From Pseudocercospora fijiensis CIRAD86 (Eukaryota; Ascomycota; Dothideomycetes; Mycosphaerellales; Mycosphaerellaceae): 64,000 bases of DNA. The notes under the pieces were generated by a model. That model was not told where the DNA came from. It did not search any database and saw only the letters and a program-made list of their open reading frames with translations. The stretch covers positions 67,782 through 131,781 of the forward strand of contig NW_006921544.1 of assembly GCF_000340215.1 (NCBI RefSeq), in the 5' to 3' direction. The position numbers were made by a program, and so were the translations under genes. Shown piece by piece: positions 4,182 to 51,360 of this stretch. Position 1 is the stretch's first letter, and each line of letters begins with the position of its first letter.

Positions 4182-4189
4182 AGGTTTAT

Positions 4190-6140: not shown

Positions 6141-6358
6141 CGGAATTAGTAGATATCGGCTTGGTATGCTTAACTTAGTGTAATAGGCCGTATAGAAGGC
6201 CTTGCTTGATAATTAGTACGGTTGTTTTAGTAGAATAGTACGTATAGGTCCTATTCTTTAGGCGCAATATAGTTAGATTAGTCTTGTTTGTAGCTATACC
6301 GCTAAAAGCTTGAAATAAGGACTATCTAGCTACTACCCTTAAAGGGTGGATCGAATAC

Positions 6359-6557: not shown

Positions 6558-6764
6558 GTATTGCACCGTTATACGACTTCTCGACTTAAAGGTTAACTAG
6601 TAATTGTCTATAACTTCTACGGTTTAATCTTAAAACACCCGAAACTAGGGGATAGGAACTTATCGCCTACGAACTATCTCTATTCTAAACGGTATCGGGA
6701 ATCTTAAGGAGAGAGGAGAGTTAATATAGATATAGCGTTCTAGAAAGAGGTACGTTTTCTAAAA

Positions 6765-6868
6765 TACCGGCTATAGCTGCCGGCTATAGCTACTAGCTAT
6801 AGCTACCGGCTATAGCTACTAGCTATAGCTACCGGCTATAGCTACTAGCTATAGATTCCGGCTACTTT
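6765..6868. repeat. 13-bp CCGG-centred minisatellite
   Basis: About seven tandem units of a 13-bp motif of the type TACCGGCTATAGC, alternating with versions where CCGG has become CTAG. The same motif recurs in short runs throughout D and D' (for example 7854-7880, 9250-9276, 11343-11368, 11972-11994, 12573-12608, 13422-13458, 42098-42164, 49116-49147, 50548-50570) and is not obvious in elements A, B, C or F. Confidence 0.85.
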
Positions 6869-6899
6869 AATTAACCGTAGAGATCTAGCTAATTATTAT

Positions 6900-9240
6900 A
6901 GGCTACGCTTAAGGAAGCTCTAGGATTAAAGGCTACCGATTTCTCTCCCGAAGACTTTAAGCAACTAGTAAACGAAATGCTAGCTATAAACGGTCTTCCG
7001 GAAGACTTCTACGAAAGGGAGTCTATATAGAAGATATACCTATATCTTATAAACTACCCTCCCCTATTTCTCGGCGCGACAACCTAGCGTATTATATTCG
7101 AAAAGAATAAAGAGGCTGCGTTAGACGATATTCGGGAGATCCTCCGTAATACTCGCCGAGTAGCTATTACTATCGATAGCTAGTTAAGCCGGACTATAAG
7201 AGCCTCCTTCCTTTCGATTATACTATACTTTATTAATTCGGATTAGAAACTCTAGGAACTTATAATCGGATTCCCTAAAATTCTAGGTTCCTATACTAGT
7301 AAGGATATAGCGAAGCTTATCTATACGGCAATAGATAGGGTTAGCGTAATAACGAAACTAATCTCGATTACTATAAACAACGCTAGTAATAATCGAACAT
7401 TATATAAGGCGTTATATATACAATTTACTCGTATATGTCTTTAAAATTACTAATTATATCGATAGGGTCGAGTACGTAGAGGAGATTATAAGGTCTATAA
7501 TCTAGCTTAATCTTCCGAATATTAAGCTCGCTACGATTCCGGATACGTACGATAATACGTACGACGATAACGATAAAGAGGAGCCTAGTAATAGCCCTAG
7601 CCCTATTAAATCGGAGCCGACGTCGTTGCTAGTTATATCCTTATAGAAGTTTCCCTACCTCGCTAATATAGTTTAAATCGCGATCCGAGCCCTCTTTAAG
7701 ACGCTTAAAATTGCACTATTAAACGACGACTAATAGAAGATCCTAGATAAGGATAAGGTAAAGTCGAAAGTCGAGAAACTCGTTATAGTAATAAGATAGG
7801 ATAAGGTAGAGAGCCCGCTCTCGTTTTATATAAGGTATAACTTTTGTCCGTAGCCGGTACCTATAGCCGGCAACCTAGTATAGTTCTAACTCTTTTTCTC
7901 TAGCTTCGTCGTCTAGTAATATATACGAACTCGAGCTTATAGAGATATAACCGATTCGAGGCTATTTAAAAGAACCTAATCGAGCGCCCTAAAACCGATG
8001 CCTAGAATATCGTATAGAATAAGCGATAGTAAAAGCGGCCTCCTTAGCGCCTACTCTGTTTTACCTAAGACGTTAAGACCCGGTTCGATTCGACTTTCTA
8101 TATAGTTACGAGGGGATATACTTTACGTACCGCTCTCGAGATCTATTAGAGTTCCGAAGGTATTAAGTAGCTCGGCCTTACCGCTGCCGAATAGCGCTAA
8201 GTAGAGTATCTCGTCGATATTAGTAAGTATTACGCGAAGGTTACTACTACGATTAGAAGAACCCGAGGACCGACGATCTACCTTGTCTTTACGTACTATA
8301 ACTAGCTCTTTAACGAGCTCGAGGAAACCGTAGCTAAGCTAGCTAAGAAGAGCGTTCTCTAGAAAGTAGCTATAACGAAAGCTATAGACAGCTCCTATAC
8401 TAAGTTATATAAATATTATAGTGCTACCTTTAAGTCGTTTAGGGATATCTATAGCGTTACGTACTTACTTAACCCGGTAGAAAAGGATATATACTAGTAG
8501 AGGCCGGAATAGAAGGCGGACGAGGTATAGCCGAAGCATTACTAGACTATTCTAGAAAAGATATTCTACGAGCGTCGGAAAGAAACTAGTCTAAATATAG
8601 CTCCTATAAAGAAAAAGAAGGTTTAGAGGGCTCCGATATTATACCTATTTCGTAGGTAGGAAATAGAGGTAGAAGAGGAAGCAACTACTAAAGGGAATAA
8701 AGAAGAGTTCGATCTCTATCGGCGCGCGAGTAAGTATAAATCCGTAGGCTCGGAAAGAGGGCTAATAATCTCTAGATCTTACCGGTCTTCTAGACGAATT
8801 CGGAGACGATATTCTCGCTATATAGTAGCGGTTAGAGCCTAAGTTTCTAACGATAGCGTCGGTCGCTTAGGACGTCCTCGCTATCCCGAGCGTAGGTATA
8901 GGCTATAAGAGGTCTTTTAGTATCGCTCGTTACTAGGGCCGCTTTAATCGAATATACTCGCTTACTATCTTCGAATCTATTATAGTATTCTAATACTATC
9001 TCCTCTACTAGAGTCGCTAAGGCAGGTTACTAAAGATTATACTAAAGGAGTTAATCGAGGAATTAGAAAACCTTAAGATCGAAGAAACCTAGGAGCGCGA
9101 AAAGAATACGAAATTTAGTCTAAGCGAAACCCTAATTAGCGATAACGAAGAGGAGGAGGGCGGAGGTAGAAGGCGATACTAGGTCGAGAAGCGGAAACGT
9201 ATATAGGCTTAGAGTAGCTTTAAGGAGACGAAGCGTTTAC
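6900..9240 (+). pseudogene. hAT transposase relic (D')
   Basis: Reading TAG/TAA as former Gln/Trp gives a hAT-family transposase. Around 7160-7440 is the first catalytic region: AITIDS followed by LSRTIRASFL, then LQELIIGFPKILGS and an NNASNNRTL block equal to the TDNASNN motif of the family. Near 8080 comes T.WDSTF.M (the TRWNST motif). Near 8860-9000 is the C-terminal dimerisation domain, with LAIPS.G.G...SFS.AR followed by YS..TFESI. The ancestral enzyme would cut and paste the element by binding its termini, and hAT enzymes leave 8-bp duplications. Introns may exist near 7440 and upstream of 6900, so the exact gene limits are unsure. The copy at 44150-46480 is collinear and more damaged. 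Confidence 0.85.
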
Positions 9241-9490
9241 GTATAAGGTAATATAGCCGGCGTATATAGCCGGTATATATCCGAAATGTGTTTCGAATTC
9301 CTAGGACCTAAACAGACTAGTTGCTATAGCAACCGACCCCGCTTATCTACGGACTATTTCTAATTCTCTATTCGCTCTTCCTCTCCTTCTTCCCTTTCCC
9401 TATATTCTTAAAAACAAACATACCTTAAGGATTCGGCTCTTCGGGCCTTCCTAAGCCGGCTACTTCCCCTTCCTTAAGCTACTATCCTTT

Positions 9491-10193
9491 ATACGAATCT
9501 AACGATAACCTACTAAGGCGGTTTAATAGAAGACTATTTATTCTAGAAGGCAAGAAGTATTAATATCTCCTTACGATTATATACTTATTAATTTTCTAGG
9601 TCCTACCGATATACCCTCGTCGCCTAAACGCGTAGATAAATATCTTTAGAGGCTAAAGGGCAAGGGTAAAGTAAGCTAAGTATAGGGAGACTGTAGCGAG
9701 AACGAGATATCGGAAGAGTAAGACTCTCTATAGTATATACGAAGGAAGGGGATTCCTCGGAAAACAGTACCGAAAAACAAGAAGGCTTTAGGTAGATAGG
9801 AGAAGGCTAAAAAGAGTAGGCGGACGAAGACTATTACGAAGAAAAGTTATCTTTCTATTAAAAAAAAGGGAATAAGGTAGGACTCGACGATAAAGAAGCG
9901 GCGCTTTAAACTAGGTACTATTACCCTTCGCTAGATCCGGCTTTTCTAAAACAAAAGAGGGACCGAGCTTTTAATCCCTAAGACTCCCTTCTAGCGACTT
10001 ATCCGAGAAATTATATTAGATTTTCGGTCTAGTATGCGATTTACGGCTAAGGCGATTAGTGCTCTTTAGGAAGCTACGGAGGCATTTCTCGTAACCGAGC
10101 TTAAGCTTTTAAACCTCCTTACTATCTATACGAAGCGGGTTACTCTTTAAAATAAAGATATATAGCTTCTAGCTAAAATTCGGCGTCGGTTTA
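9491..10193 (+). pseudogene. Histone H3-like gene with long divergent N-tail (D' cargo, H3-A)
   Basis: One frame, with RIP stops read as Gln, gives about 140 tail residues and then a complete H3 histone fold at 9908-10193. Visible landmarks: KKRRFKLGTITLR, TELLIPKTPF (canonical H3 has TELLIRKLPF), then .RLIREI, DFRSSMRF, AISAL.EATEAFLV, IYTKRVTL and NKDI.LLAKIRRR. The order and spacing match H3 from the alpha-N helix to the end of alpha-3, with one extra residue between alpha-N and alpha-1. The tail is lysine/arginine rich but lacks the canonical ARTKQTARKSTGG start, which is the pattern of fast-evolving H3 variants such as CENP-A; the loop-1 length is canonical. The proposed start is an ATA at 9491, probably a RIP-altered ATG. 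I see no intron. The frame may run on past 10193 as a fusion. The call on the fold is firm; the centromeric-variant reading is inference. Confidence 0.85.
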
Positions 10194-10199
10194 TAGCGG

Positions 10200-10990
10200 A
10201 TTAGTTAGAAATTGTATTTAGTCGTTAGATTAACCTAGGAGGAGGCCTATTTTCGTATCCTTTTACCGGCTATAGGTACTAGCTATATTTCTAATTTTAT
10301 CTCCGCGCCGTCCCTAAATCTAAGGTATAAAGTAGAAACCTAGCGCTCTATATTTACCCGGCTATTATAGAGACGAGCTATATTTAGATTAGTTTCTTCG
10401 TATATCGCGACCTAGCGGATAGTAAGCGAAAGGGCGATAGAACGTTTATAATATGTCTCTATTTAGACCTAAAATACAAAGGTCCTAAGGAGCCCTAGCA
10501 TCCTAACTATAAGGAGATTCTTTAGCATTAGCACTTTAATCCTCTATACTACGAGGTAGATAGTAAGCCTACGAAAGGGCGATAGAACGTTTATAATACG
10601 TCTCTATTTAGACCTAAAACACAAAGGTCCTAAGGAGCCCTAGTATCTTAACTATAAGGAGATTCTTTAGTATTAGCACTTTAATCCTCTATACTACGAG
10701 GCAGATAGTAAGCCTACGAGAGAGAAACTTTAACGAGAAATTCTCTATAATACGTAGCGCTATTGCATAGCTATAGATACGTACTAAGTCCGGCAACTCG
10801 AAGAAGAATTAAGATAGCGTATTAGCGACCGAGGAGGAGATCGATAGTATACTAGTAGAGTCGAGGTCTTATAAGCGAAGTATAAGATAATATAGGCTCT
10901 TAGTCGTATAGAGTAACGTACTATATAAATAACTAGGCGTGCTACTCTTATTTACTTACGATCTATATCCTAGAGTACTCTTCTCGTACT
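10200..10990 (+). pseudogene. Unidentified RIP-broken reading downstream of H3-A, coiled-coil-like end
   Basis: The frame after H3-A stays open apart from TAG/TAA for most of this stretch. Its last third reads as charged, heptad-like sequence (R.LEEELR.RI, then VEVL.AKYKII.AL and RIE.RTI) ending near 10980. It could be a C-terminal extension of H3-A or a separate gene. D carries the same reading (47560-48160) but with small indels. A 145-bp tandem duplication inside it (10428-10717) breaks the frame in D' only. I do not recognise the family. Confidence 0.45.
10428..10717. repeat. 145-bp tandem duplication, two copies, specific to D'
   Basis: The string GAAAGGGCGATAGAACG starts at 10428 and again at 10573, and the 145 bp following each is nearly identical. 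Element D has a single copy (about 47775-47920), so the duplication arose after the two elements separated. The copies differ mainly by C/T and G/A changes, consistent with RIP acting after the duplication. Confidence 0.85.
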
Positions 10991-11787
10991 TTTTATACTC
11001 TTTTCTAATACCTTACCTATAAGCGCTCCGCGACAACCGAGTAAATATAAGCTATAGGGTTTCCGCTCGGTACCTTAGCCTCCGAGATAGGGCGGAGTTA
11101 AATTTAGAGCGATAGCCGGCACTCGTAGCTAGTATATAGAGACGGTAGTAGGCCTTTTCTTACTAAATAACTAGCTTGTTTAGTATAGCCTACCTAATAT
11201 TTCTTATATTTACTAGTAATAGGCCTAGGTTACTTATAAGATTACTATAGCTAGTAAAGGCATTACTAAAGAATATCTATACTATAGTAGGATACTATTA
11301 TTACGCCGGCTATTTATTAAAAGGAGGCTTTCGCCTATTACTATACCGGCTATATATACCGGCTATATTTCAAAGTCTGCCGTACCTGCCTTTTTTAGCC
11401 GTACCTACCTTTTTTAGCCGTACCTGCCTTCTTTCCTTACTCTAACGTTACTATAATATAGGCTTACGCGAAGCTTACTCTATTGCCTAGCGATACCGCG
11501 ATACTACCTCTCTCGCTATATTTAACCTTCGTATCGATACCTATATCTCTACGCTCTATATCTACTACCTCCGTAATACCCTCGCTCTGCGCGCGCCTTC
11601 GTATACCTTCGTAACGCACTTTTTTCCTTAATTCGACGACTTTTATAATAGCGAGTCTACTTAACTAAGTTACGACGCCTCGCAAGAAGGGACCTACTGC
11701 TTCTACGGATTATAATAAGACCGGAAATTATAGAACGAGTCTACTGCTTCTACGGATTATAATAAGACCGGAAATAATAGAACGAGT
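10990..11787. other. Spacer between cargo genes in D'
   Basis: RIP-damaged, no gene recognised. It contains a threefold short repeat GCCGTACCTACCTTTTTTA-like (about 11378-11435), a CCGGCTATAT minisatellite run at 11343-11368 and a short duplicated stretch (CTACTGCTTCTACGGATTAT at about 11695 and 11741) just before the H3-B start. It probably holds the H3-B promoter. Confidence 0.5.
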
Positions 11788-12340
11788 ATAGTATATTAAC
11801 GTAAGAGGGCTACTACTACTACCGCTAGCTCCGGTACTAGAAAGGGCGTCGCGAGTAAGGCTCCGCGTAAGATAACGGCGGGCAAGGCTCTACGCAAGAC
11901 GATAACTAGCGCTTCTACTACTAGTAGCAATCGTACGAAGCGTCGATAGCGCCTAGGAAGTAAGTCCTATTTATAGCCGGTAGCGTAGCCGGCATTCTTA
12001 CTATCTTTTTACTAATCCTTCTTTAGCCGTAGCCCTCCGTAAGATTCGGTAGTATTAGAAGAGTTCTAAGCTCCTAATCCGTAAAGCTCCTTTCTAACGA
12101 TTTATTCGCGAAATTACCTAGGATTATAGAACGGACCTTCGCTTCTAAGCCTCCGCGATAGGCGCCCTTTAAGAGGCTATAGAAGCCTACCTAGTTCGTA
12201 TCTTCGAATATATGTTTCTCTTCTACCTCTTTTCGGACTATACTAATACTATTTTAGCGGTTAACCTTATAGCTATCTACGCGAAGCGTATAACGATTAT
12301 AGACAAGGATTTTAAAGCACTCGATTAGATTCTAAAAGGC
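11788..12340 (+). pseudogene. Histone H3 gene with two introns (D' cargo, H3-B)
   Basis: Exon 1 (11788-11959) encodes a basic tail with SKAPRK and AGKALRKT blocks resembling the GGKAPRKQLATKAARKS part of H3. Intron 1 is 11960-12026: GTAAGT donor, ACTAAT branch-like site, TTTAG acceptor. Splicing rebuilds RLGTVALRKIR, the H3 GTVALREIRRYQK motif. Exon 2 (12027-12209) reads KLLIRKAPF, RFIREIT, DYRTDLRF, ASAIGAL.EAIEAYLVRIFE. Intron 2 is 12210-12257, and its donor reads ATATGT, explained by RIP of GTATGT preceded by T; it has ACTAAT and TTTTAG. Exon 3 reads VNLIAIYAKRITIIDKDF. With introns removed, the fold aligns with H3 end to end without gaps. Start ATA at 11788 is presumably a former ATG. It is clearly a different gene from H3-A. 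Host-gene capture is the simplest origin. The copy in D is at 48929-49490. Confidence 0.92.
11960..12026 (+). other. Intron 1 of H3-B in D' with CCGG minisatellite
   Basis: 67-bp intron with GTAAGT donor, ACTAAT at 12011-12016 and TTTAG acceptor. It contains TAGCCGGTAGCGTAGCCGG. The same intron in D (49101-49179) is 79 bp; the 12-bp difference equals one extra TAGCCGGTAGCG unit. Confidence 0.85.
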
Positions 12341-12668
12341 TAGAATATCTATATTCGAGATAGTGCTAGATAGGATAGATATACTAGTAGGAAGGATGTT
12401 CGTAGTGTCGTCTATAAGCTTTTCTATATACGAAATAAGCCGCTATTATACGGCGCTGTATACCGCGCTCTAAATACTCTCTAAGCATACCTATATAGTA
12501 TAGTATACTTTATTAGCCGTATAGAATAGAAGTCTTCGAAAAACCCGTTAGTGCTTAGGAGTAAAAAGGCCGACTACGCTACCGGCTACGCTGCCGGCTA
12601 CGCTACTAGGTCTTATAAAGAACTAAAAGAAGATAGACATTCTAGTTAATTTGTATTAGTTTGGATTT

Positions 12669-13193
12669 TTATAAAAAGCAAACAAGGAAAAAAGGAGGAA
12701 GATTGAAGAACCTAATACTTATAGTTATAGGCATTATCCCTGTTCTCTAGACTATATTATATACCTGCTTTCGCAACTCTACTTAATACTCCTACTAAAT
12801 ATCCTTATACTCTACCTACTAGAAATTCAACTAGGTACCTAGACCTATAGCTACCTCTATATCTTTTACTATCTTCTATAGGTTAAAGGACTCCTCTATA
12901 GTAGCCTCTACTTCCTTATATAATACGAAGTTACTACCTACCCTATCCTTAATATCTACTAAATAACCTAGAGTTCTAAGGAACGAACTAGCATTCGGCC
13001 GTAGTATAGCGAGTAACTAGTAGAACGCCCTATAGAGCTACCTTATAGCTATTTCGTATATAGTACCGATATCGAGGGAGGAGCTATCTTAGTACTTAAT
13101 ATTAGAGTATAGTTTAGTAGGAAAGTGCTAGAACTTCTTAAGGAGAGCTTCGACGGAAATCGATAAGTTCTACCTAGATCTAGATAAAGACAT
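12669..13193 (-). pseudogene. Unidentified minus-strand cargo gene at right end of D'
   Basis: On the minus strand an ATG at 13193 opens a frame interrupted only by TAG/TAA down to about 12669, giving roughly 174 residues. It reads MSLSRSR, then SVEALLKKF, TIYEIAIR.LYRAFY, FLRTLGYLVDIKDRVGSNF and EVEATIEESFNL. Leucine spacing suggests a helical protein. The family is not recognised. The gene is conserved in D (49828-50351, with the start changed to ATA). Because it lies within about 450 bp of the right terminus in both copies, it belongs to the transposon. Histone chaperone or transposase partner are guesses only. Confidence 0.55.
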
Positions 13194-13419
13194 TCTACTA
13201 AGTAGTTAGGGAATTGAACCGTAAACGAAAGGATAAAATTTATACCTAAGGAGTGCAGTTTCCGAACTAAACTATAATGCCTTATATATATATATATATG
13301 CTTTTAATTAGTTAGTGCCCTTAGCTAATTGTCTATAGATTTAAGGTTATATAAGTACCTTTATACAACTACGTAGCCTAAGTAGGATTCGAAAATTCTA
13401 TAAGTACTAAGGACTAAAA

Positions 13420-13637
13420 ATGCCGGCTACGCTACCGGCTACGCTACCGGCTATACTGCTAAGTCTTATAAAGGGCTTGCTTAAAGCTACGTATACATTC
13501 GTACACTTCTTAAAAACCGATAAATTATATAGTTCGAACTAGCTACTTATATAGTTGCTTAGCAAACTAACCTAAACTAAACTAGAGTTTCGGCTTAGTA
13601 AACTAAACCAAACTAACCCGAACTACTACGGGGTCTA
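13420..13637. repeat. Right terminal region of D' with hAT inverted repeat
   Basis: A CCGGCTACG minisatellite at 13422-13458 is followed by a subterminal array of AAACTAA/CTAAACT motifs (13570-13620) and the terminus AACCCGAACTACTACGGGGTCTA ending at 13637. The same end occurs at 50751 and, more degraded, at 22896. Arrays of short repeats next to short inverted ends are typical of hAT transposase binding regions. Confidence 0.8.
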
Positions 13638-22549: not shown

Positions 22550-22896
22550 TAGACCCCGAAGTAGCTCGGTTTGCGAACTATAAAACGTATATAGTTTAGT
22601 TTTCTTATAGTATCCCTCCGGTTTAGTTCCGGTTTAGTTTGCTACCCCGCTAGTCTAAACTAGTTTCTAAGAAAATCCGACTAAACTCCGACTATATATA
22701 ACGATATATAACGACCTCGGATCGAGTCCGGAACACTATAGGGATAGTATATTATATATACTCTACGATTGTATTTATATTTCGGAATGTTTTAGATCGG
22801 GTTTGTACCCGTAGCTAGTACGTAGCCGGTAAACCGGTCTATATACTAGTTTCTTAGTAAGCTAAATTAAACTAACCCGAACTACTATAGGGTCTA
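22550..22896. mobile_element. 347-bp non-autonomous hAT element (MITE) of the D family
   Basis: It starts TAGACCCCG and ends GGGTCTA. It is flanked by a perfect 8-bp direct repeat AGTATTAT at 22542-22549 and 22897-22904, the duplication size of hAT transposons. Its left 100 bp share AACTA..AAACGTATATAGTTTAGTTT and GTTCCGGTTTAGTTT with the left end of element D, and its right 50 bp share AACTAACCCGAACTACTA with the right end. It has no coding capacity. This copy proves the hAT-type termini of the family and shows that the family could move short derivatives. Confidence 0.88.
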
Positions 22897-31606: not shown

Positions 31607-31805
31607 TGTTAGGGCCAAAGAGGCTATACGTAATTAGTATATAACTAGGCCGAGTGAAGCTAGGGTCTTAATGCCTTAGGCAGGGCTTAGCGCTTAGCGT
31701 TAGGCTAACTCTCCTACCTTCCTCCCTCTCCTCCTAGATCCTTATCGAATACTATACTAATTCACTACTACCCTATCTACCTGCTAACATAACCCTTATT
31801 ATACA
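31607..31805 (+). repeat. 5' LTR of chromovirus B
   Basis: Starts TGTTAGGGCC, ends CTTATTATACA, 199 bp. Just inside is GTATTCGATCTACCC, with no TGG-type primer binding site, so the priming tRNA is unclear. Confidence 0.93.
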
Positions 31806-32029
31806 GTATTCGATCTACCCTTTAAGGGCAGTAGCTAGATAGTTCTTATTTCAAGCTTTTAGCGGTATAGCTACGAACAAGACTAATCTAACTATATTGC
31901 GCCCGAAGAACGGGACCTATACGCACTATTCTATCGAAATAACCGTACTAATTATTAAGCAAGGCCTTCTATACGGCCTACTACACTAAGTTAAGCATAC
32001 TAGACCGATATCTACTAATTCCGCTACAT

Positions 32030-33480: not shown

Positions 33481-33539
33481 GCGTAAAACTATCGACATTA
33501 TACTAGCTATAATACGCTCCTACCTCGTATAGGATACAA

Positions 33540-37370: not shown

Positions 37371-37379
37371 TAGGAATAA

Positions 37380-38589
37380 TACTACCCCTAGGGTACTATT
37401 AGCTAACTAATTAGAGGCCGACAAACTAGGACAATAAGACTATACTACTATAGTAGACGCGTACCGAGTATTAACAAACGCGCTATAACTGTTAACTAAT
37501 CCTAGTAACTAATCGCCTACTCTTTCGAGGGATCTACCCCTTTACTAGCGTACCCTATAAGACCCTTCTTTTAACGCCCCCTCTTATTCCTTCCTCCTAT
37601 CGAGGCCTCGAGGCCTAGGCGATTAGCGAGGACGGCGTTACACTCGTACTAAATAGCGACACGGCCGGCGCGGCTATATTAGTAATAGTGTTACGGAGTG
37701 TATCGCTAGTTAAAGCGTCGCTAGTCGAAGAAGGAAACTAGAAGCAAGGTAAAGTTAGCGCTAAGACGGCTAGCGCCGCTATTGTTAACATTACTTGCTA
37801 TTATTACTACGCCTATAGATACAACCTTACCTATACTACGAGCCTAAGGCACCTTTAATTAAAACTTTAATTAAAACTTTAAGGCTAAGTTAAAATATTA
37901 AGGCTTAAAAGGATTGAGTAGCTTAATAGATTAACTAACTAAGGGCAAAACTATAGAGCTAAGCTAGCCGGGGTCGATCTTGCGGATAATAGGTTACTCC
38001 TCGATCTTTCTAACCCTTTAAGCGAGGCGAACCTTAACTACTATACTTATAATAGCCTTTACTTATAGAAACTAGACGAGCTGTGTTTTTTCTAAAAAGA
38101 CAAGATAAGATTAACAATTAAAGGCTACTAAACCTAACTAATTAGGGCTAGCGAAACTACGAACAATAATAGCCCTCGTAATAATAAGAACAAACCCTCG
38201 GAAGCGGACAACCCTCGGAAGCGGACATAGCTAGGTCTTTTAGAGTAGACGCAAAGAACTCGGAACGATATTACTTAGAGCGGAGGCAGTGCTATAATAC
38301 CTCGTACGTCTACCTATTATAGTAGGGAAGACGCGCCCGTATTGTAATTAGTCGATAGCTCTTAATTCTTGTAGCTTTATATCCCTTTACTTTATTATAT
38401 GTAAGGATAGCGCTGTTAGAGTTAGACATTGTATTAGAAGGTAAGGTTTGATATAGTTATATAATTAGGTAGTTAAGTGTTCAATTTAGCGCGGCTAAGC
38501 AGCTTATTAGATTTGCTAAGTTAGTAGCAATAGAGGTCGAGATTAGAATACAGACAGGCTACGAGGGCGCGGCCTTTAGAAGGGAAGCG
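37380..38589. other. Long 3' non-coding part of chromovirus B
   Basis: Between chromodomain and 3' LTR. It holds a repeated CTTTAATTAAAA motif (37852-37885) and two copies of a CCCTCGGAAGCGGACA 16-mer (about 38196-38227), both also present in element A near 300-345 and 1-40. No gene was recognised on either strand. A purine stretch AGAAGGGAAGCG directly precedes the LTR. Confidence 0.6.
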
Positions 38590-39905: not shown

Positions 39906-41365
39906 ACGGTAAAAGAGCTCGAATTATTCCTTATTTTTACTAACTTCTACCGTTAGTTTACTAAGAGCTATTTACGGTATATAGTACCGCTAACTAAGCC
40001 TACTAAAACTAAGAATAATCCTTCGAGGGAGCTTAGATAGAGTAATAAAGTATAAGCCGCTCTTAAGATTTTAAAGAAGTAATTTACTACTACTCCTTTA
40101 CTATACTTTTTTAACCTAACTAAACTATTAAAATTAGGACAAGCGCTTTATAGTATACTATATCCGCTATCCTATTATAATAGAGTAGTAGTAAAGATAG
40201 CTACTAGTACCCGATTGCCTTCTTCTCTAGAGAGATAATTAATATAGAACGCCGGTACGAGATATATAAGTAAGAGCTATTAGCAATTATAGAGGCCGTT
40301 AAGTATTAGTAGCACTATCTAAGCGGTACGTAGTATACTATCTAGGTCTATATAGGCTATAATAACCTTCGTAGAATTACTAATATTACTAGGGTTATAG
40401 GTCGATAGGCTAGATAGGCCGTCTACCTCGCTATATTCGATTTCAATATTCTATATCGGCTCGGCGTAAGCAATCCTACTAATAGTCTATTAAGACGACC
40501 TAATTACGATAGCGAAACCTAGTCTATTAACTTATTATCTCCTACCCTATAATATAAAATTACTATAGATATTACTATATAGTATAATAAGCGGACCTCC
40601 GGATACCGCGATAGTATATAATAAAGGATATTCCTACTATACTAATAATACGCGTAAAGAAGAACAAATACGCTTATATAGACTATAGGGTCCTATAGTT
40701 AATATTGCTATTTATAGTAATAGTAACGATAGTACTAATATAGTTAATCCGGCTACTAGTACTATAGTACGTACTACGTAAGATAGCGAGGGTACTATTA
40801 AGCAACCTTATATAAGGTAATAGTTAAGCTTTTATAAGGAAGCTACTACGTACTTAGTAGAGGGACGCCTTTACTATTACCCGCCTTACTTAGCTTATAA
40901 GTAAACGCGAGACTTAATCTAGTAAGAGTAAGAATAAGTAGTTAGTCGATAGTACTAAGTACCTATACTATAAGGGCCGCTTATATCTAGCCGCTAAGCA
41001 ATCGAGTAGATAGGAGATTCTTAAGCAATACTATAATAGTAAGCTTAGGAGTTACTATAGTATAGAGAGGTCGTACGAGCTACTATTATATATATACTAC
41101 TAGCTAAATAGTAAGCGGGATATAAAGAAATACGTAAATATATATACTTTCTACTAGAGTATTAAAGTACTACGATATCTACTATTTAGCGAGCTGTCTT
41201 TACTTTCGTTTCTAAATACGCTATTCGCTAAGCTTATTCTTAATTTTATTATAGGCCTTCCTACCGCTAAGAGGCGTAGTAGTAAGGATATATTTAATAC
41301 TATTCTAGTCGTTATAGACCGCTTTACTAAGAGCGCTTAATATATTCCTACTAGAGAAGATTAGT
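39905..41365 (+). pseudogene. Fragment of a gypsy element related to A/B (RT end, RNase H, integrase)
   Basis: Plus-strand similarity to element B 34870-36350 is clear throughout: the LLIFTNFYR.FTKSY region, the RNase H segment and the integrase segment down to ATTCCTACTAGAGAAGATTAG, matching B near 36324. It is more RIP-damaged than B. It begins at a copia junction and ends at the left terminus of element D, so both sides were cut by other events. No LTR is present. Confidence 0.8.
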
Positions 41366-41520
41366 TAGACCCCGTAGTAGTTTAGTTTATAAACTACTAA
41401 ACGTATATAGTTTAGTTTCTTAGCGGCGAACTAGCTCCCTAGTTCCGGTTTAGTTTTTTTCAAACTATATAGATTCCTAGTTTAAACTAGAGACTATATT
41501 AGTTTTACTATAAGGATACT
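41366..41520. repeat. Left terminal region of D
   Basis: Inverted terminus followed by subterminal TTTAGTTT/GGTTTAGTTT motifs, mirroring the AAACTAA array at the right end. Such arrays are typical transposase binding regions in hAT elements. Confidence 0.75.
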
Positions 41521-41769
41521 CTTATTCGACTACCGGCTACGATTGCCGGCTATAATAGTAACTAGGTTACATTTACTACGCTCTATTACCGTTACTAGGG
41601 CGTAGTTGCCGTAGTTACGAAATCTTACTTATATAACGTTAAATAGGTAGCAATAATTAGGGCTTCGCGATATTCTTATACTTTTTAACTTCTTTCTCTA
41701 TACCTATCCTAATAATAACTACTATACGCTATACCCCCGCCTCCCTTCCTTAAAATAGTAAGAGAGTAG

Positions 41770-43310
41770 CGCGCCGCGCGCTAAATAGAAGATAGAACTA
41801 GAGACCGCGAGGTTATTTTACCTAAGTATCTAAGAAAAAAGCGTAAGACTAAAGAGGAGTACTCTATAAAGAAGAATTCCGTACGAGACCGCGAGAGAAA
41901 GGAGAAGATAGATAAGGATAAAAGATTAAAGGATAAGAGAAGGAAGGCGCGGAATAAAGTATTTTATCGATAGCTAGCGCCTATAGAAAAAAGTAAAGGT
42001 TAGGATAAGAAGACAACGTAAGAGAAGGCTAAGAGGAGGAAGGAATTACGTCTAGTCTTCGAGCGCAAATTTCTAGTAGCGTAAGTTAATCTAGCTAATA
42101 GCCGTAGCTAGTAGCTATAGCTAGTAGCTATAGCCGGTAGCTATAGCCGGTAGCTATAGCTAGTATTTCTTTCTTTTAGACGTTAACTAATAGTATTTAG
42201 ACCTATAGCCGCTACCTCTTTCGATACGACCGATAGTAACGGAGATATTAAGATAGCCGAGAATAAAAATACTAGAGTTTAGGATGCCGCGAAAGAGCTT
42301 AATACTACGAATAAAGAGACTAAAAAGAGCGAGGAGATACTATACGTCGATCTAGTAATAGATATCGTCTTAGGACCTAACGCTAGAGACGATAAGCGCT
42401 AGGAGTAGATCGAGTATAGTTAAAGGGACGAGGTACTAGTAAAGGGCTAAGGTATAAGTTATATTAATCTAGAAAATTATTATTAAAGCTACTACGAAAA
42501 GCTAGTAAGGATTAGACTCGAGACTAGTCGTCTTTATATCCTCGATATAGAGTAGAAATTTCTTAATTAGTATTAGAGCGAAGCCTTTACGTCTATAAAA
42601 GCAAAGTAGCTTACGATTAATATAATCGGGGCTAGGTATCTAGGGACGGCGGAAGAGTTACTAAAGGAGGAAGGGGTATAGGTAATTATTCTATACTCGG
42701 TATATATAGCCGGCGTTCGTAGCCGGCAGATACTAATAGTTAAATAGAAAGCGTTTCTCGAGGGTAGAGTGCTACTACTACATAAAATCTTTACTAAGGT
42801 AGAGAGGGCTTGTATCCGGAATCTAAGCTACTAGTAGAATAGGTTAGCGTTAGAATTCTCTAAATCTCTATATAAGCCTCCGAAGGATTACCTATTTTAG
42901 CGATACGGCTTTATCTCGACTACTCCGTAGGTACCCGACGAAGCTCGAGCGCTCTTTAAGGTCTTTACTAAGAAGCGGAAGGAGTTCGAGGATTAGGATT
43001 AGTTAATAGAGCTGTTAGTTAGTCTTAGGTTTCGTAGTTAGACTCGGCCTAAGCATTTGCTTATTAAGTGTTTTATACTAAAAGAGGATAGATTAAGACT
43101 AAAAACGAGCTTAGATTCGTTAGGTATAGTAGCTCGGTTCCGTTAGTAGGAGAGAGCCGCCGTATAGAAGGCAAAATTTAGGTAGTTAGGGTAGCTAGGA
43201 AAGAAATTCTAGTAGTTAGGCTAGCTAGGGTAGCTAGGAAAAGAAATCTAGTAGTTAGGTAGCTAGGAAATAAAAAAAAAGGTAGCTAGCTATTTACTAC
43301 CTAGCTATTC
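41770..43310 (+). pseudogene. Basic cargo protein gene with minisatellite intron (D)
   Basis: Exon 1 (to 42080) is highly charged: RERKEKIDKDKRLKDKRRKAR and KAKRRKELRLVFERKFLVA. A 99-bp intron at 42081-42179 has a GTAAGT donor and TTTTAG acceptor and contains the CCGG minisatellite. Joining the exons keeps the frame. Exon 2 continues as ATSFDTTDSNGDIKIAENKN, YINLENYY.SYYEKL, then a mixed region with RPKHLLIKCFIL and a glutamine/leucine/glycine-rich repeat end (43180-43300). The family is not recognised; the lysine/arginine content suits a nuclear nucleic-acid binding protein. In D' this part lies outside the window. Confidence 0.55.
42081..42179 (+). other. Intron with CCGG minisatellite in the basic cargo gene
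   Basis: GTAAGT donor at 42081, TTTTAG acceptor at 42179. The core 42098-42164 is a tandem array of 13-bp TAGCCGGTAGCTA-type units. The splice restores the reading frame (GC + A). Confidence 0.7.
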
Positions 43311-43319
43311 CTAACGATA

Positions 43320-43870
43320 CGATACTATAAAAGAAAGGGTATTTCCCTATAGCTACTAGTATATATCTACTACTCCTAAGTCCTTACCTTGCCGTACAAA
43401 ACTTTAAAATATACCGACCGATATTGTATATATACTAGGCGCTATACTAGGAAGAGTAATAACGAGACGATAGTCGAAATAGTCTAGTATACGAGCGAGA
43501 TTACGATAACGTTAAGAGGAGGTTATATACTCGCCTTTAAGCCTATTAAGTACTAGACGACGATTAGGGCTAGATTTATCCTCTCCGAATCCTAGTAGTA
43601 GGAATTTATTATAGGATACTACTACCTAGTCCTTACCTTTAGGGAGTCTAAGTAGAAGGTTATTCGGAGATATAAGAATATCGAGTATTAACCCGGATAT
43701 CTTCGAAAAGGCTAGCTAGGGGTATCTTTAGAAACCCGATAATTAATAGGTCTATAAGATATAGTTCCCTTTATACTTACGTTTAAAGGAGTTTAAACTA
43801 CGGAAGTACTCGATATAATAGGGTAGTAAGGAGCGACCGGATATATTCTAGAAGTTCTTTTATAAAGGGG
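43320..43870 (+). other. Unclear reading between basic gene and transposase in D
   Basis: Parts look coding on the plus strand (TTIRARFILSES then EFIIGYYYLVLTFRES near 43550-43650), but I could not follow one frame across it. It may be the first exon of the transposase or a separate gene. Confidence 0.35.
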
Positions 43871-44149
43871 GGATTATACTATTATATAACTTCTCGACTT
43901 AAAGGTTAACTAGTAATAGTCTATAACTTATTCGGTTTAATCTTAAAATACCCGAAACTAGGGGATAGGAGTTTACCGCCTACTAAATATCTCTATTCTA
44001 AACCGTATCGGGAATCTTAAGAAAAGAGGAGGGTTAATATAGATATAGCGTTCTAGAAAGGGGTACGTCTTCTAAAATACCGGCTATAGCTACCGGCTAT
44101 AGCTACTAGCTACTTTAATTAACCGTATAGATCTAGCTAATTATTATAG

Positions 44150-46480
44150 GCTACGCTTAAGGAAGCTTATAGATTAAAGGCTACTAATTTCTCCTCCGAA
44201 GACTTTAAGTAACTAGTAAACGAAATACTAGCTATAAATAGTCTTCCGGAAGACTTCTACGAAAGGGAGTCTATATAGAAGATATACCTATATCTTATAA
44301 ACTACCCCCGCCCCTATTTCTCGGCGCGATAACCTAGCGTACTATATTTAAAAAGAATAAAGAGGCTACGTTAGACGATATTTAGGAGATTCTCTATAAT
44401 ACTCGCCGAGTAGCTATTACTATTAATAGCTAGTTAAGCTAGACTATAAGAGCCTTCTTCCTCTCGATTATACTATACTTTATTTATTCGGATTAGAAAC
44501 TCTAGGAACTTATAATCGGATTCCCTAAAATTCTAGGTTCCTATACTAGTAAGGATATAGCGAAGCTTATTTATATAGTAATAGATAGGGTTAGCGTAAT
44601 AACGAGACTAATCTTAATAACTACGGATAACGCTAGTAATAATCGAATATTATATAAGGCGTTATATATATAATTTATATATATAAGTCTTTAAAATTAC
44701 TTATTATATCGATAGGGTCGAGTATATATAGGAGATTATAAGGTCTATAATCTAGCTTAGTCTTTTAAATATTAAGCTCGCTATAATTCCGGATACGTAC
44801 GATAATAAAGATAAAGAGGAGCCTAGTAATAGCCCTAGCCCTATTAAATCGGAGCCGACGTCGTTACTAGTTATATCCCTATAGAAGTTTCCCTACCTTA
44901 CTTATATAGTTTAAATCGCGATCCGAGCCCTCTTTAAGACGCTTAAAATTGCACTATCGAACGACGACTAATAGAAGATCCTAGATAAGGATAAAGCAAT
45001 GTCGAAAGTCGAGAAACTCGTTATAGTAATAAGACGGGATAAGGTAGAAAGCCTAGCTTTCGTTTTATATAAGATATAACTTTTATCCGTAGCCGGTACC
45101 TCTAGCCGGTAACCTAGTATAGTTCTAACTCTTTATCTCTAGCTTCGTCGTCTAGTAATATATATAAACTCGAGCTTATAGAGATATAACCGATTCGAGG
45201 CTATTTAAAAGCACCTAATTAAGCGCCCTAAAACCGATACCTAGAATATCGTATAGAATAAGCGATAGCAAAAGCGGCCTCTTTAGCGCCTACTCTGTTT
45301 TACCTAAGATATAAAAACTCGGTTCGATTCGACTTTCTATATAGTTACGAGGGGATATACTTTATATACTGCTCTCGAGATCTATTAGAGTTCCGAGGGT
45401 ATTAAGTAGCTCGGTCTTACTACCGCTAAATAGCGCTAAGTAGAGTATCTCGTAGATATTAGTAAGTATTACGCAAAGGTTACTACTACGATTAGTAGAA
45501 CCTAAGGACCGACAATCTACCTTATTTTTACGTACTATAACTAGCTCTTTAACGAGCTCGACGAAACCGTAGCTAAGCTAGCTAAGAAGAGCGTTCCCTA
45601 GAAAGTAGCTATAACGAAAGCTATAGATACCTCCTATACTAAGTTATATAAATATTATAGTACTACCTTTTAGTCGTTCGGGGATATCTATAGCGTTACG
45701 TACTTACTTAACCTAGTAGAAAAGGATATATACTAGTAGAAGCCGGAATAGAAAGAGGACGAGGAATAGCCTAAGTATTACTAGAGTATTCTAGAAAAGA
45801 TATTCTATTAGCGTCGGAAAGGAACTAGTCTAAATATAGCTCCTATAAAGAAAAAGAAGGTTTAGAAGGCTCCGATATTATATCTATTTCGTAAATAGGA
45901 AGTAGAGGTAGAAGAGGAAGTAACTACTAAAGTAAATAAAGAAGAGTTCGATCTCTATCGGCGCGCGAGTAAGTACTAAATCCGTAGGCTCGGAAAGAGA
46001 GCTAATAATCTCTAGATCTTACTAGTCTTCTAGACGAACTCGGAGACGATATTCTCGCTATATAGTAGCGGTTAGAGCCTAAGTTTCTAACGATAGTATC
46101 GGTCGCTCGGAATGTCCTCGCTATACTAAGCGTAGGTATAGGCTATAAGAGATCTTTTAGTATCGCTTGTTACTAGGGCCGCTTTAATCGAATATAATCG
46201 CCTACTACCTTCGAATCTATTATAGTATTCCAATACTATCTCCTCTACTAGAGTCGCTAAGATAGGATACTAAAGGTTATACTAAAGGACTTAAACGAGG
46301 GATTAGAAAACCTTAAGATTAAAGAAATCTAGTAGCGCGAAAAGAATACGAAATTTAGTCTAAGCGAAACCCTTATTAGCGATAATAAAGAGAAAGGGGG
46401 TAGAGGTAGAAGGCGATACTAGGTTAAGAAGCAGAAGCGTATATAGGCTTAGAGTAGCTTTAAGGAGACGAAGCGTTTAC
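44150..46480 (+). pseudogene. hAT transposase relic (D)
   Basis: Collinear with 6900-9240 and about 90 percent similar by eye. The same family blocks are present: LQELIIGFPKILGS near 44500, NASNNR near 44630, DSTF near 45330, and the dimerisation region with FNRI..PTTFESI near 46190. It has extra RIP changes and small indels. Non-functional. If an autonomous copy exists elsewhere in the genome, these two sequences give its consensus. Confidence 0.82.
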
Positions 46481-46833
46481 GTAGAAGATAATATAGCCGG
46501 CGTATATAGCTAGCGTAGATAGATAGCGTATATTCCTAATATATTTCGAATTCCTAAATAGACTAGTTACTATAGTAGCGAAGCGCTTATATAGAAGGTA
46601 ATATAGCCGCCGTATATAGCCGGTATATATCCCTAATATATTTCGAATTCCTAAATAGACTAGTTGCTATAGCAACCTACCCCGCTTACCTACTAACTAT
46701 TTCTAATTCTCTATTCGCTCTTCTTCTTCTATTTCCCTTTCCCTATATTCTTAAAGACAAATATACCTTAAGGATTCGGCTCTTCGGGCCTTACTAAGTT
46801 AGCCGCCTTCCCTTCCTTTAGCGACTATATTAT

Positions 46834-47560
46834 ATACAAATCTAACGAGGACCTACTAAGACGGTTTAATAGAAGACTTTTTAATCTAGAAGGTAAGAAG
46901 TATAAATATCTCTTTACGATTATAGGCTTATTACTTTTCTAGGTTCTAGTAATATACCCTCGTCGCCTAAATATATATAAAGATACCTTTAGAGGCTAAA
47001 GAGTAAGGGTAAAGCAAGCTAAGTATAAGAAGACTATAGCGAGAACGAGATATCGGAAGAGTAAGACTATCTATAGTATATATAACGGAAGGGGGTCCCT
47101 CGGAAAATAGTACTAAAAAACAAGAAGGCTTTAGGTAGATAGAAGAAGGCTAAAGTAGCTAAAAATTTAAAAGACTAGGCGGACGAAGACTATCGCGAAG
47201 AAAAGTTATTCTTCTATTAAAAAAAAGGGTAAAAGGTAGGTCTCGACGATAAAGAAGCGGCGCTTTAAACTAGGTACTCTTACTCTTCGCTAGATCCGGC
47301 TATTCTAAGATAAAAGAGGGACCGAGCTTTTAATCCCTAAAACTCCCTTCTAGCGACTCGTCCGAGGAATTATATTAGATATTTAGTCTAGTATACAATT
47401 TATAGCTAAGGCGATTAGTACTCTTTAGGAAGCTATAGGGGCATTTCTCGTAACCGAGTTTAAGCTTTTAAACCTCTTTACTATCTATACGAAGCGGGTA
47501 ATATAAAGATATATAGCTTCTAGCTAAAATTCGGCGTTAGTTTATAGCGGATTAATTAGA
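46834..47560 (+). pseudogene. Histone H3-like gene H3-A, copy in D
   Basis: Same gene as 9491-10193. Fold landmarks at 47267-47540: LGTLTLR, TELLIPKTPF, RLVRGI, AISTL.EAIGAFLV and IYTKRV. Small indels in the tail and an 8-bp loss after the KRV codons shift the frame, so this copy is more decayed. The start is ATA at 46834. Comparison with D' suggests the tail sequence is variable while the fold is kept. Confidence 0.8.
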
Positions 47561-48160
47561 ATTATTTAGTCGTTAGATTAACCTAGGAGGAGGCCTATTT
47601 TCGTATCCTTTTACGAGCTATAGGTCCTAGCTAGATTTCTAATTTTATCTTCGCGCCGTACCTAAATCTAAGGTACGAAGTAGAAACCTAGCGCACTATA
47701 TTTACTCGGCTATTATAGAGACGAGTTATATTTAGACTAGTTTCTTCGTATATCGCGACCTAGCGGATAGTAAGCGAAAGGGCGATAGGACGTTTATAAC
47801 ACGTCTCTATTTAGACCTAAAATATAAAAGTCCTAAGGAGCCCTAGTATTCTAACTATAAGGAGATTCTTTAGTTTTAGTACTCTAATTCTATATACTAC
47901 GAGGTAGATAGTAAGCCTACGAGAGAGAAACTTTAACGAGAGATTCTTTATAATAGGTAGCGCTATTATATAGCGGTAGATACGTACTAAGTCCGGTAAC
48001 TCGAAGAGGAATTAAAATAGCTACCGAGGAGGAGATCGATAGTATCTTAGTAGAGTCGAGGTCTTATAAGCGAAGTGCGAGATAATATAGGCTCTTAGTT
48101 ATTTAGAGTAACGTACTATATAAATAACTAGGCGTACTACTCTTATTTACTTACGACCTA
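47560..48160 (+). pseudogene. Coiled-coil-type reading downstream of H3-A, copy in D
   Basis: Matches 10200-10990 but with one copy of the 145-bp segment that is duplicated in D'. It reads FVYRDLADSKRKGDR, YKEIL, then R.LEEEL. Frameshifts are present in the last part. Function unknown. Confidence 0.45.
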
Positions 48161-48928
48161 CATCCTAGAATACTCTTCTCGTACTTTTTAAATACTTTCT
48201 AATACCTTACCTATAAGCGCTCCGTAGTAACCGAGTAAACATAAGCTATAGGGTTTCCGCTCGATACCTTAGCCTCCGAGATAGGGTAGAGTTAAATTTA
48301 GAGCGATAGCCGGCATACGTAGCCGGTATATAGAGACGGTAGTAGGCCTCTTCCTACTAAATAGCTAGCTTGTTTAGTATAGCCTACCGTAGTATAGATA
48401 TTTCTTATATTTCCTAGTAAAAGGCCTAGGTTACTTATAAGATTACTATAGCTAGTAAGGGAATTACTAAAGAATATCTACACTATAGTAGGATACTATT
48501 ATTACGCCGACTATTTATTAAAAGGACGCTTTCGCCTATTACTATACTAGCTATAGGTACTAGCTATATTTTAAAGTTTGCCGTACCTACCTTTTTTAGC
48601 CGTACCTACCTTCTTTCCTTACTCTAACGTTACTATAATATAGACTTACGCGACGCTTACTCTATTACCTAGCGATACCGCGATACTATCTCCCTCGCTA
48701 TATATAACCTTCGTATCGATACCTATATTTCTACGCTCTATATCTACTACCTCTATAATACCCTCGCTCCGCGCGCGCCTTCGTATATAGTATACCTTCG
48801 TAACGTACTTTTTTATTAATTCGACGACTTTTATAATACCGAGTCTACTTAACTAAGTTACGACGACTTATAAGAAGGGACCTACTACTTCTACGGCCGG
48901 TAATAAGACCCGAAGTAGTAGAATAAGT
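48160..48928. other. Spacer between cargo genes in D
   Basis: Counterpart of 10990-11787. It contains a CCGG minisatellite run at 48307-48332 and the GCCGTACCTACC repeat near 48580-48610 (two copies here). No gene recognised. Confidence 0.5.
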
Positions 48929-49490
48929 ATAGTATATTAACGTAAGAAGGCTGCTACTACTACCGCTAGCTCTAGTACTAGAAAGAGCGTCGCGGGCAAG
49001 GCTCCGCGTAAGACGATAACTAAGGCTTTATATAAGACGACGACTAGCGCTTCTACTACTAGTAGTAATAATCGTACGAAGCGTCGATAGCGCCTAGGAA
49101 GTAAGTCCTATCTATAGCCGGTAGCGTAGCCGGTAGCGTAGCCGGTATTCTTACTATTCTTTTACTAATCCTTCTTTAGCCGTAGCCCTTCGTTAGATTC
49201 GAATATATTAGAAGGATACTAAACTCCTAATCCGTAAAGCTTCGTTTTAACGACTTTTTCGCGAAATTGCCTAGTATATTATACGGGACCTTCGCTTCTA
49301 AGCCTCCGTAATAGACGCCCTTTAAGAGGCTTTAGAAGCCTATCTAGTTCGTATCTTTAGATATATATTTCTCTTCTACCTCTTTTTAAACTATACTAAT
49401 ACTATTTTAGCGGTTAACCTTATAGCTATCTACGCGAAGCGTATTACGATTATAGATAAGGATTTGAAAGCCCTTAATTAGATTCTTAAA
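48929..49490 (+). pseudogene. Histone H3 gene H3-B, copy in D
   Basis: Counterpart of 11788-12340 with the same two introns. Tail: SGKAPRK-like blocks (AGKAPRKTIT). Intron 1 is 49101-49179 (79 bp), one minisatellite unit longer than in D'. Exon 2 reads VALR.I, LLIRKA.F, REI and DLRF. Intron 2 ends at TTTTAG near 49410. Exon 3 reads VNLIAIYAKRITIIDKD. Conservation of both splice patterns in the two copies shows the gene entered the transposon with introns, or gained them before the copies split. Confidence 0.88.
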
Positions 49491-49637
49491 GGCTAGAATA
49501 TCTATATTCGAGATAGTACTAGGTAGGATAGATATTCTAGTAGGAAGGATGTTCTTAGTATTATCTATAAGCGTTTCTATATACGAAATAAGCCGCTATT
49601 ATACCGCGCTATATACCGCACTCTAAATACTCTCTTA

Positions 49638-49668
<31 letters not shown>
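49638..49668. repeat. (TA)n microsatellite
   Basis: About 15 TA units; another run of similar length lies at 50441-50471. The corresponding D' runs are shorter (13279-13292), showing length change between copies. Confidence 0.8.
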
Positions 49669-49671
<3 letters not shown>

Positions 49672-49827
49672 TAGTATACTTTATTAGCCGTACGGAATAG
49701 AAGTCTTCGAAAATCCCGTTAGTACTAAGGAGTAAAAAGGCTAGCTACGCTACCGGCTACGCTACTAGGTGTTTTAAAGAACTAAAAGAAGATAGATATT
49801 CTAGTTAATTTATATTAGTTTAAATTT

Positions 49828-50351
49828 TTATAAAAAGAAAATAGGGAAAAAGGAGGAAGGTTAAAGAACCTAATACTTATAGTTACAAGTATTACCCCTA
49901 TTTCCTAGACTATATTATATACCTACCTTCGTAACTCTACCTAATACCCCCTCTAAATATCCTTATACTCTATCTACTAGAAATTTAACTAGGTACCTAG
50001 ACCTATAGCTGCCTCTATATCTTTTACTATCTTCTATAGGTTAAAGGACTCCTTTATAGTAGCCTCTACCTCCTTATATAATACGAAGTTACTACCTACC
50101 CTACCCTTTATATCTACTAAATAACTAAGAGTTCTAAGGAACGAACTAGTATTCGGCCTTAGTATAGCGAGTAGCTAGTATAACGTAGTATAGAGCTACT
50201 TTATAGCTCTTTTATATACTATACCGATACCGAAGGAGGAGCTATCCTAGTACTTAATATTAGAGAATAGTTTAGTAGGAAAGTATAAGAACTTCTTAAG
50301 GAGGGCTTCTAGGAAAATCGATAAGTTCTACCTAGATTTAGATAAGGATAT
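49828..50351 (-). pseudogene. Minus-strand cargo gene, copy in D
   Basis: Counterpart of 12669-13193. The ATG is changed to ATA by RIP and the frame is interrupted by TAG/TAA and one length difference of 1 bp. Same position relative to the right terminus (400 bp). Function unknown. Confidence 0.5.
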
Positions 50352-50438
50352 TCTACTAAGTAGTTAGGGAATTAAATAGCGAGCGAAAGGATAATATTTA
50401 TACCTAATAAGTGTAGTTTCTAAACTAAACTATAATAG

Positions 50439-50471
<33 letters not shown>

Positions 50472-50751
50472 TTTTAATTAGTTAGTACCCTTAGCTAATT
50501 GTCTATAGATTTAGGGTTATATAAGTACCTTCCTATAACTAAAAAGTGCTAGCTACGCTACCGGCTATACTCTCGTATCTTGTAAAGGGCTTCCTTCGAG
50601 TTATATATATATTCTTATATTTCTTAGAAACCGATAAATTCTATAGTTCGAACCTACTACTCCTATAGTTGCTTAGCAAACTAACCTAAACTAAACTAGA
50701 TCTTCGGCTTAGTAAACTAAACTAAACTAACCCGAACTACTACGGGGTCTA

Positions 50752-51360
50752 CTATTTAGTATTCTAGCTATCGAACCTAGATACTATAACAATCGAAATA
50801 GCTAGAGGTAGTATAGAAGGTTATATAGATATATTACGTTATAGTTAGAGGTTTAGTTATATCGCTATAGGCGATATTAGGTAAAAGGAAGGATTAGAAG
50901 TTGTATTAGATAATATTCTTTATAAAAGTTAGTATTATTAGTAGAAAACTAGATTCTAGGGATTTACTTTCTAAAGCTATAGCTATATAATATTACGTCC
51001 TTATATTACTTTAGATACTAGGGACGACTTAATTAAGTATAAAGATAGTCGCTATTATTACTATAGTATAATAATACTAATACGTAGTTATATTATAATA
51101 GTAGATTAAGAATAGTAAGGATCCGCTTTCCTAAGATTAGTAGCTTTATCTTATAATCCGGCTTATATATAAATATAGTTAAATAATACCTAGAACTAGA
51201 TATAATTAGCCTTATTTAATAAAAAGCACTAGTCTAATAAAGGTAAGCCTATTTAATTAAAATTAGCTAAGGAACAAGGCAATTTTAATTAAATAGATCG
51301 AAATTTGCTTAAATACAAACAGGCGATAATATAGGTAGCGAAGCTAGATACCCGATGCTT
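50752..51360. mobile_element. RIP-damaged sequence right of D
   Basis: TA-rich, no coding motif recognised. It does not resemble the gypsy fragment on the other side of D. Contains a perfect inverted repeat at 51249-51296. Normal composition begins at about 51370. Confidence 0.45.
51249..51296. repeat. Perfect 16-bp inverted repeat with 16-base loop
   Basis: CTATTTAATTAAAATT at 51249-51264 and its exact reverse complement at 51281-51296. It lies at the edge between RIP-damaged and normal DNA. Could be a transposon end, a foldback remnant or chance in AT-rich DNA. Confidence 0.7.

Follow-up and report, generated by a model that had tools for sequence, protein, structure and literature searches.

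A mutated hAT element family of Pseudocercospora fijiensis carries two histone H3-like genes, one of them with two intron-like stretches

Dhillon et al. (2019) described in Pseudocercospora fijiensis 784 histone H3-like sequences contained in 471 hAT elements, all of them altered by repeat-induced point mutation (RIP). According to the available text of that paper, the full-length elements measure 9.5-9.9 kb, are bounded by 20-bp terminal inverted repeats (TIRs) and 8-bp target-site duplications (TSDs) and contain two H3-like copies, and an intact host H3 gene lies on scaffold 6. The H3-like copies show exon-exon junctions and no intron, a 16-residue insertion in the second copy is ascribed to mutation, and DUF659 is reported but Dimer_Tnp_hAT was not found (PMC6710886). 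A 2026 paper, as far as its available text goes, repeats this account (PMC13041039). In Pyrenophora tritici-repentis, Manning et al. (2013) described a hAT element with an H3-like gene (H3L) for which expressed sequence tags (ESTs) are present (PMC3538342); its sequence is stated by Dhillon et al. to be without similarity to the Mycosphaerellaceae elements (PMC6710886). Here we analysed a 64,000-bp stretch of P. fijiensis CIRAD86 (contig NW_006921544.1, positions 67,782 to 131,781; hereafter the window), in which a degraded hAT element, D, carries two H3-like genes, H3L-1 and H3L-2. The new finding is a pair of intron-like stretches in H3L-2, whose splice signals are preserved in two subfamilies of the element.

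The family of D is very likely the already published P. fijiensis hAT-H3 family, a match made by description and not by element sequence, and the intron evidence alters the meaning of that element. The likeness comprises a length of about 9.5 kb, inverted repeats, 8-bp TSDs, one or two H3-like copies, CpA-to-TpA changes of the RIP type and an H3 gene on scaffold 6. The published account, in its available text, differs in giving no introns and a mutational insertion where H3L-2 has two intron-like stretches, and in giving DUF659, unmatched here, and no Dimer_Tnp_hAT, for which we obtained a marginal match (PMC6710886). The Pyrenophora hAT differs in its size (5.6 and 2.3 kb), its single H3L and its 26 nearly identical copies with ESTs (PMC3538342). 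Since both cases had been published, the statement in the first-pass annotation of this DNA that no case had been described does not stand. The plant Pack-MULEs, named in the available text of Dhillon et al. (PMC6710886), are likewise DNA transposons carrying host-gene sequence; unlike these, the present family has the same two histone genes in all four full or near-full copies examined, one of these genes with intron-like stretches and an elaborated tail. The features of D on which the argument rests are as follows, in window coordinates:

41366..50751, + strand: element D, a full-length copy (9386 bp) of the hAT-H3 family, degraded by RIP
Both ends of 41366..50751: TIR of D, TAGACCCCGTAGTAGTT, from the sequence and from the alignment of D to full-length copies with target duplications
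47083..47552, + strand: H3L-1, a divergent H3 gene found by phmmer and Pfam, its matches in D split over two frames
48941..49100, + strand: H3L-2 exon 1, H3-like tail
49101..49179, + strand: H3L-2 intron 1, GTAAGT...TTACTAAT...CTTCTTTAG, from the copy alignment and the host gene
49180..49362, + strand: H3L-2 exon 2, histone-fold core (the same exon of copy C18 matches PF00125 with E = 3.4e-21)
49363..49410, + strand: H3L-2 intron 2, 48 nt, with the 5' site ATATAT in D
49411..49523, + strand: H3L-2 exon 3, which completes the histone fold and includes the C-terminus

The termini of D, TAGACCCC...GGGGTCTA, lie where the first-pass annotation had placed them, and TAGACCCC occurs without mismatch four times in the window, at 13630 (-), 22550 (+), 41366 (+) and 50744 (-). 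For D the RIP index (CpA+TpG)/(ApC+GpT) falls to 0.07 and for D', a second copy within the window, to 0.17, compared to values of 1.35 and 1.41 for two stretches rich in GC; CpA and TpG are nearly absent from D, the RIP-type change being saturating. The two distinct H3-type genes first annotated in D were recovered independently of its stops: with these read through, Pfam Histone (PF00125) scored above the cut-off in two different frames (E = 1.5e-11 and 2.8e-13), and phmmer detected H3 relics at 47086-47503 and 49179-49484. In D', PF00125 matched two stretches within one frame (E = 5.6e-42), with phmmer relics at 9743-10201 and 12026-12331; beyond these four, phmmer gave no fifth convincing H3 relic in the window.

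The genome search covered 73,937,190 bases in 30 contigs, the window lying on contig 13. From 772 first-look histone candidates 150 were scored, all of which exceeded the cut-off, and H3 genes are thereby found well beyond D and D'. Internal stops were present in 148 of them, and the 28 of these that were read individually are H3L-1 copies; the two matches free of stops lie on contig 6, an open H3 exon, and on contig 5, where the exon is a candidate for centromeric H3. Searches for the family ends gave 490 candidates for the 5' end and 1050 for the 3' end, 40 of each being scored, and two full-length members were delimited, C18 (9596 bp) and C13 (9527 bp). The 8-bp duplications around the whole unit, named as support in the first-pass annotation, are exact in C13 (AAAAAACA) and match at 7 of 8 positions in C18 (TTTAGGAA/TTTAGAAA), but there is none at D itself (41358-41365 compared to 50752-50759). 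Because D lacks a target duplication while family members have one, one of its flanks is probably rearranged. Two different H3 genes were found in each of the four full or near-full copies examined (D, C18, C13 and C12). The copies form two subfamilies, A and B, with 75-86% DNA identity between them; C10, which is B by the length of H3L-1 and A by H3L-2, was counted as A for H3L-2. D is a member of a hAT-type family dispersed throughout the genome with two distinct H3 genes, and this dispersal rules out that D and D' are one segmental duplication, a possibility raised by the first-pass annotation.

With stops read as Q, the core of H3L-2 is 67% identical to host H3 in subfamily A and 56% in subfamily B, that of H3L-1 is 58% identical in both, and the two genes share 47-52% of their core residues with each other. 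A protein search with H3L-1 gave a top match at 46% identity and a highest identity of 53% in the list, which comprised 25 of 55 candidates, and no phage match. With H3L-2 (1411 of 1477 candidates), the best 120 were mostly ordinary H3 at about 60%, headed by a 248-aa protein of Exophiala dermatitidis (59%). The tail of host H3 has one KAPRKTTA-like module, whereas that of H3L-2 has three in four of the six printed copies and two in the other two. Centromeric H3 (CenH3) has a longer loop 1 and a GGLG-type C-terminus; a CenH3 reading of H3L-1 and H3L-2 was rejected by eye, as both have the loop length of canonical H3 and no GGLG-type C-terminus.

Intron 1 of H3L-2 sits 3 nt from intron 2 of host H3 and in the same phase, both interrupting a codon between its first and second bases, while H3L-1 has no intron at the host position. 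The 5' site of intron 1 reads GTAAGT in all 15 copies and the 3' site CTTCTTTAG in the 13 copies that reach it; eight of the nine printed copies have TACTAAT ahead of that 3' site, and the ninth has TGCTAGT. Intron 2 ends in TTTTAG in 15/15 copies, and its 5' site is GTATGT in 2, ATATGT in 7 and ATATAT in 6, the last two being presumably RIP forms of GTATGT, as RIP at TpG predicts. Rows A_86, A_88, A_89 and A_90 of the 15-copy alignment stop short of intron 2, and of 20 short extra stretches taken, the 4 that covered intron 2 were used. The splice signals of both stretches are aligned in copies from both subfamilies. Where exon 1 is complete, its length varies by +15 and +27, both divisible by three, whereas for intron 1 (67-116) divisibility by three does not hold throughout. 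Two independent captures, of H3L-2 from a genomic H3 gene with its intron and of H3L-1 from another H3 gene or cDNA, neither having a function in the element, would account for the near-host position of the intron in H3L-2 and its absence from H3L-1, and would agree with the core identities in D's subfamily, where H3L-2 and H3L-1 share 67% and 58% with host H3 and only 52% with each other. As such captures leave unexplained the second intron, the in-frame changes of tail length and the splice sites kept in both subfamilies, we consider them very unlikely.

When H3L-2 of C18 was scored against a hidden Markov model (HMM) of 29 H3 proteins, removal of both introns gave 166.7 bits, compared to 10.0 bits with intron 1 retained and 9.8 bits with both retained; exons 2-3 scored 140.0 bits spliced and 122.2 bits with intron 2. 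As the spliced query had been used to find the 29 proteins, which introduces a bias, the test was rerun with two other references. Against 25 proteins found via H3L-1, the corresponding scores were 140.0, 2.1 and 1.8 bits for the gene and 124.2 and 105.9 bits for exons 2-3; against host H3 alone, they were 122.1, -0.1 and -0.8 bits, and 120.7 and 105.3 bits. All 297 possible 48-nt deletions from exons 2-3 were compared: removal at the splice sites took the top rank with host H3 as reference, and with the 25 proteins it came second to its neighbour by 0.6 bits. Because 48 nt equal 16 codons, this stretch is very likely the published '16 AA insertion' that was read as a mutation. H3L-2 having two intron-like stretches, the intronless-retrocopy account therefore fails for this gene, as judged from its sequence. 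We found no literature report of introns in these H3 copies, although outside the available text of PMC6710886 no search was aimed at introns alone.

According to Dhillon et al. (2019), the hAT would have captured an H3 transcript by passive transduplication and carried it as inert cargo, RIP would have followed, and the 16-residue insertion would be a mutation. The exon-exon junctions without intron reported in the available text (PMC6710886) and the intronless state of H3L-1 at the host position fit this account, and so does the failure of selection tests on the H3L genes alone to reach significance. Nevertheless, we regard it as unlikely: both subfamilies have an intron-like stretch at most 3 nt from host intron 2 together with a second one of 48 nt, H3L-2 reads as H3 throughout only with both removed, and core sharing of 47-52% between H3L-1 and H3L-2 is not expected from a single recent duplication.

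We favour, with a probability of roughly 60%, the reading that D is a RIP-mutated hAT, likely of the P. fijiensis family, whose H3 genes would have been resident and expressed rather than inert cargo. Several observations weigh against it. Neither an intact copy nor a transcript was available, and the published account, in its available text, is that of an intronless retrocopy (PMC6710886). The GT of intron 2 is intact in just 2 of 15 copies, and the frame shift caused by intron 1 is responsible for most of the score loss when intron 1 is kept. Selection tests used transversions only, since RIP makes none. Between subfamilies, H3L-1 and H3L-2 pooled, their substitutions being counted under slightly different rules, gave 40 nonsynonymous (N) and 17 synonymous (S) changes (one-sided p = 0.058) and 15/15/27 changes by codon position (p = 0.08). 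Moreover, transversions in H3L-2 amount to 1/125 in introns compared to 36/420 in exons (p = 9e-4), the opposite of what simple purifying selection on exons would give, and we found no explanation for this difference. For the histone genes, selection at the codon level is suggestive only. Transversions in the published table, 56/234 at non-degenerate compared to 21/51 at four-fold sites (Fisher p = 0.015, our own calculation from the available part of the paper), point in the same direction as codon-level constraint on the H3 copies (PMC6710886).

Tentatively, and at somewhat less than even odds, the hAT family may have evolved its own intron-bearing H3 variants as working genes, one of them with an expandable KAPRK array, which would control the chromatin of the family's own copies; the published retrocopy would then be a spliced gene. 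On the favoured reading, the element was a hAT transposon that encoded a transposase of its own alongside two H3 genes and, when active, would have given rise to a spliced H3L-2 transcript. Most likely, an H3 variant whose tail offered additional KAPRK modules for acetylation would have entered nucleosomes over the copies of the element, and these modules would have kept the copies open to transposase and to transcription, until RIP destroyed the histone genes and killed the copies seen here. An H3L protein could instead act as a counter-silencing decoy: without the usual Lys9-Ser10 context, it would thin out H3K9 methylation across the element and thereby counteract heterochromatin. Canonical H3 reads ARKS at this place and the host shows KS, whereas the H3L-2 tail reads ARKG or TRKG in all six printed copies, which favours a decoy. 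D itself, however, reads TRKS, H3L-2 of subfamily B has a different context at the place of Lys9, and the tail of H3L-1 is not alignable with confidence, which makes such a decoy highly improbable in our view. Divergent H3 genes occur in hAT lineages of two fungal orders, and the kept splice signals and elaborated tail of at least one such gene point to use rather than accident. Should the working-gene reading be true, one could test if mobile elements escape silencing by means of histones that they provide themselves. In the annotation of genes mutated by RIP, moreover, introns can be taken for mutations.

The other reading frames of D are the following:

44168..45968, + strand: hAT transposase relic, main coding part, with frame changes within and a codon-position transversion signal
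45969..46015, + strand: putative transposase intron, GTAAGT...CTCTAG, from a 7-copy alignment and the sequence of D
46016..46437, + strand: hAT C-terminal dimerisation region, the next transposase exon, from the PF05699 matches of C18 and C12
41798..42030 (approximate), + strand: Lys/Arg-rich frame, from the read-through frame of C18
42280..43197, + strand: ORF-A, a long read-through open reading frame (ORF) with no assigned function, absent from D'

The transposase relic proposed by the first-pass annotation is borne out by its codon-position signal, three pooled stretches showing the third-position excess expected of a coding gene between subfamilies (24/14/44 transversions, p = 2e-4), although the third stretch by itself shows no N/S constraint (omega 1.01). 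Dimer_Tnp_hAT (PF05699) was marginal in C18 (E = 4.2e-4, 20.5 bits compared to a cut-off of 21.4) and reached E = 0.0071 in C12, whereas no hAT domain was found in D or D' against Pfam at E<=1. The putative intron has the 5' site GTAAGT in 6 of 7 copies and GTAAAT in C13, varies by 1 nt in length between copies and may be part of the reason that the dimerisation domain escaped notice. DUF659 (PF04937) had no Pfam match in D, D' or the given exons of C18, a test limited by RIP damage; none of 10 places fetched from the 21 with DUF659 in the genome shares DNA with C18. TNP-like_RNaseH_N in the C18 exons, at 0.034, was below the cut-off, and 457 candidate transposase relatives yielded none at E<=0.001. 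The basic protein gene of the first-pass annotation corresponds to the weakly supported Lys/Arg-rich frame; its transversions by codon position (1/0/6, p = 0.011) are 7 changes in all, and its N:S of 6:1 is near neutral. For ORF-A, Pfam gave no match and the codon positions no signal (p = 0.31). The annotated minus-strand gene found no support: on that strand of D there is no Pfam match at E<=0.1 (DUF2244 at 0.14), and in the 3' region, 1150 bases long in C18 and 1080 bases in D, each of the six frames contains stops (23-46 and 25-43, respectively), with a longest open run of 55 codons. Since RIP creates stops in genuine genes too, these counts do not by themselves exclude a gene. Most of the 3' region is missing in copy C12.

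Two relatives of D lie in the window:

6569..13637, + strand: D', second copy, its first ~2.7 kb missing
~6920-9197: transposase of D'
9740-10201: H3L-1 of D'
11800-11959, 12027-12209 and 12258-12370: exons of H3L-2 of D'
22550..22896, + strand: derivative of 347 bp resembling a miniature inverted-repeat transposable element, with related ends, an exact 8-bp duplication (AGTATTAT) and no H3

Three blocks of 84-89% identity, in the same order, align D' with positions 43882-50751 of D, as had been annotated. The 347-bp element is a predicted nonautonomous relative and the sole relative without H3 seen within the window. Elsewhere in the genome, exon 3 of an H3L-2 copy (C17:213580-214340) is apparently interrupted by sequence starting with TAGACCCTATAGTAGTTCGG, like the family ends, and a second open host H3-type exon (C5:605104-608295) ends in VWGGLG and is a candidate host centromeric H3. 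To the left of D, 39912-41364 is similar to 34871-36340 and 1882-3338 (71-72% identity), a sequence that we take to resemble a Gypsy integrase; D is apparently inserted into it, and the right flank has no matching continuation. The segments 738-6557 and 31607-37453 form a 5.9-kb inverted repeat pair, 85% identical, one copy of which adjoins the truncated start of D'.

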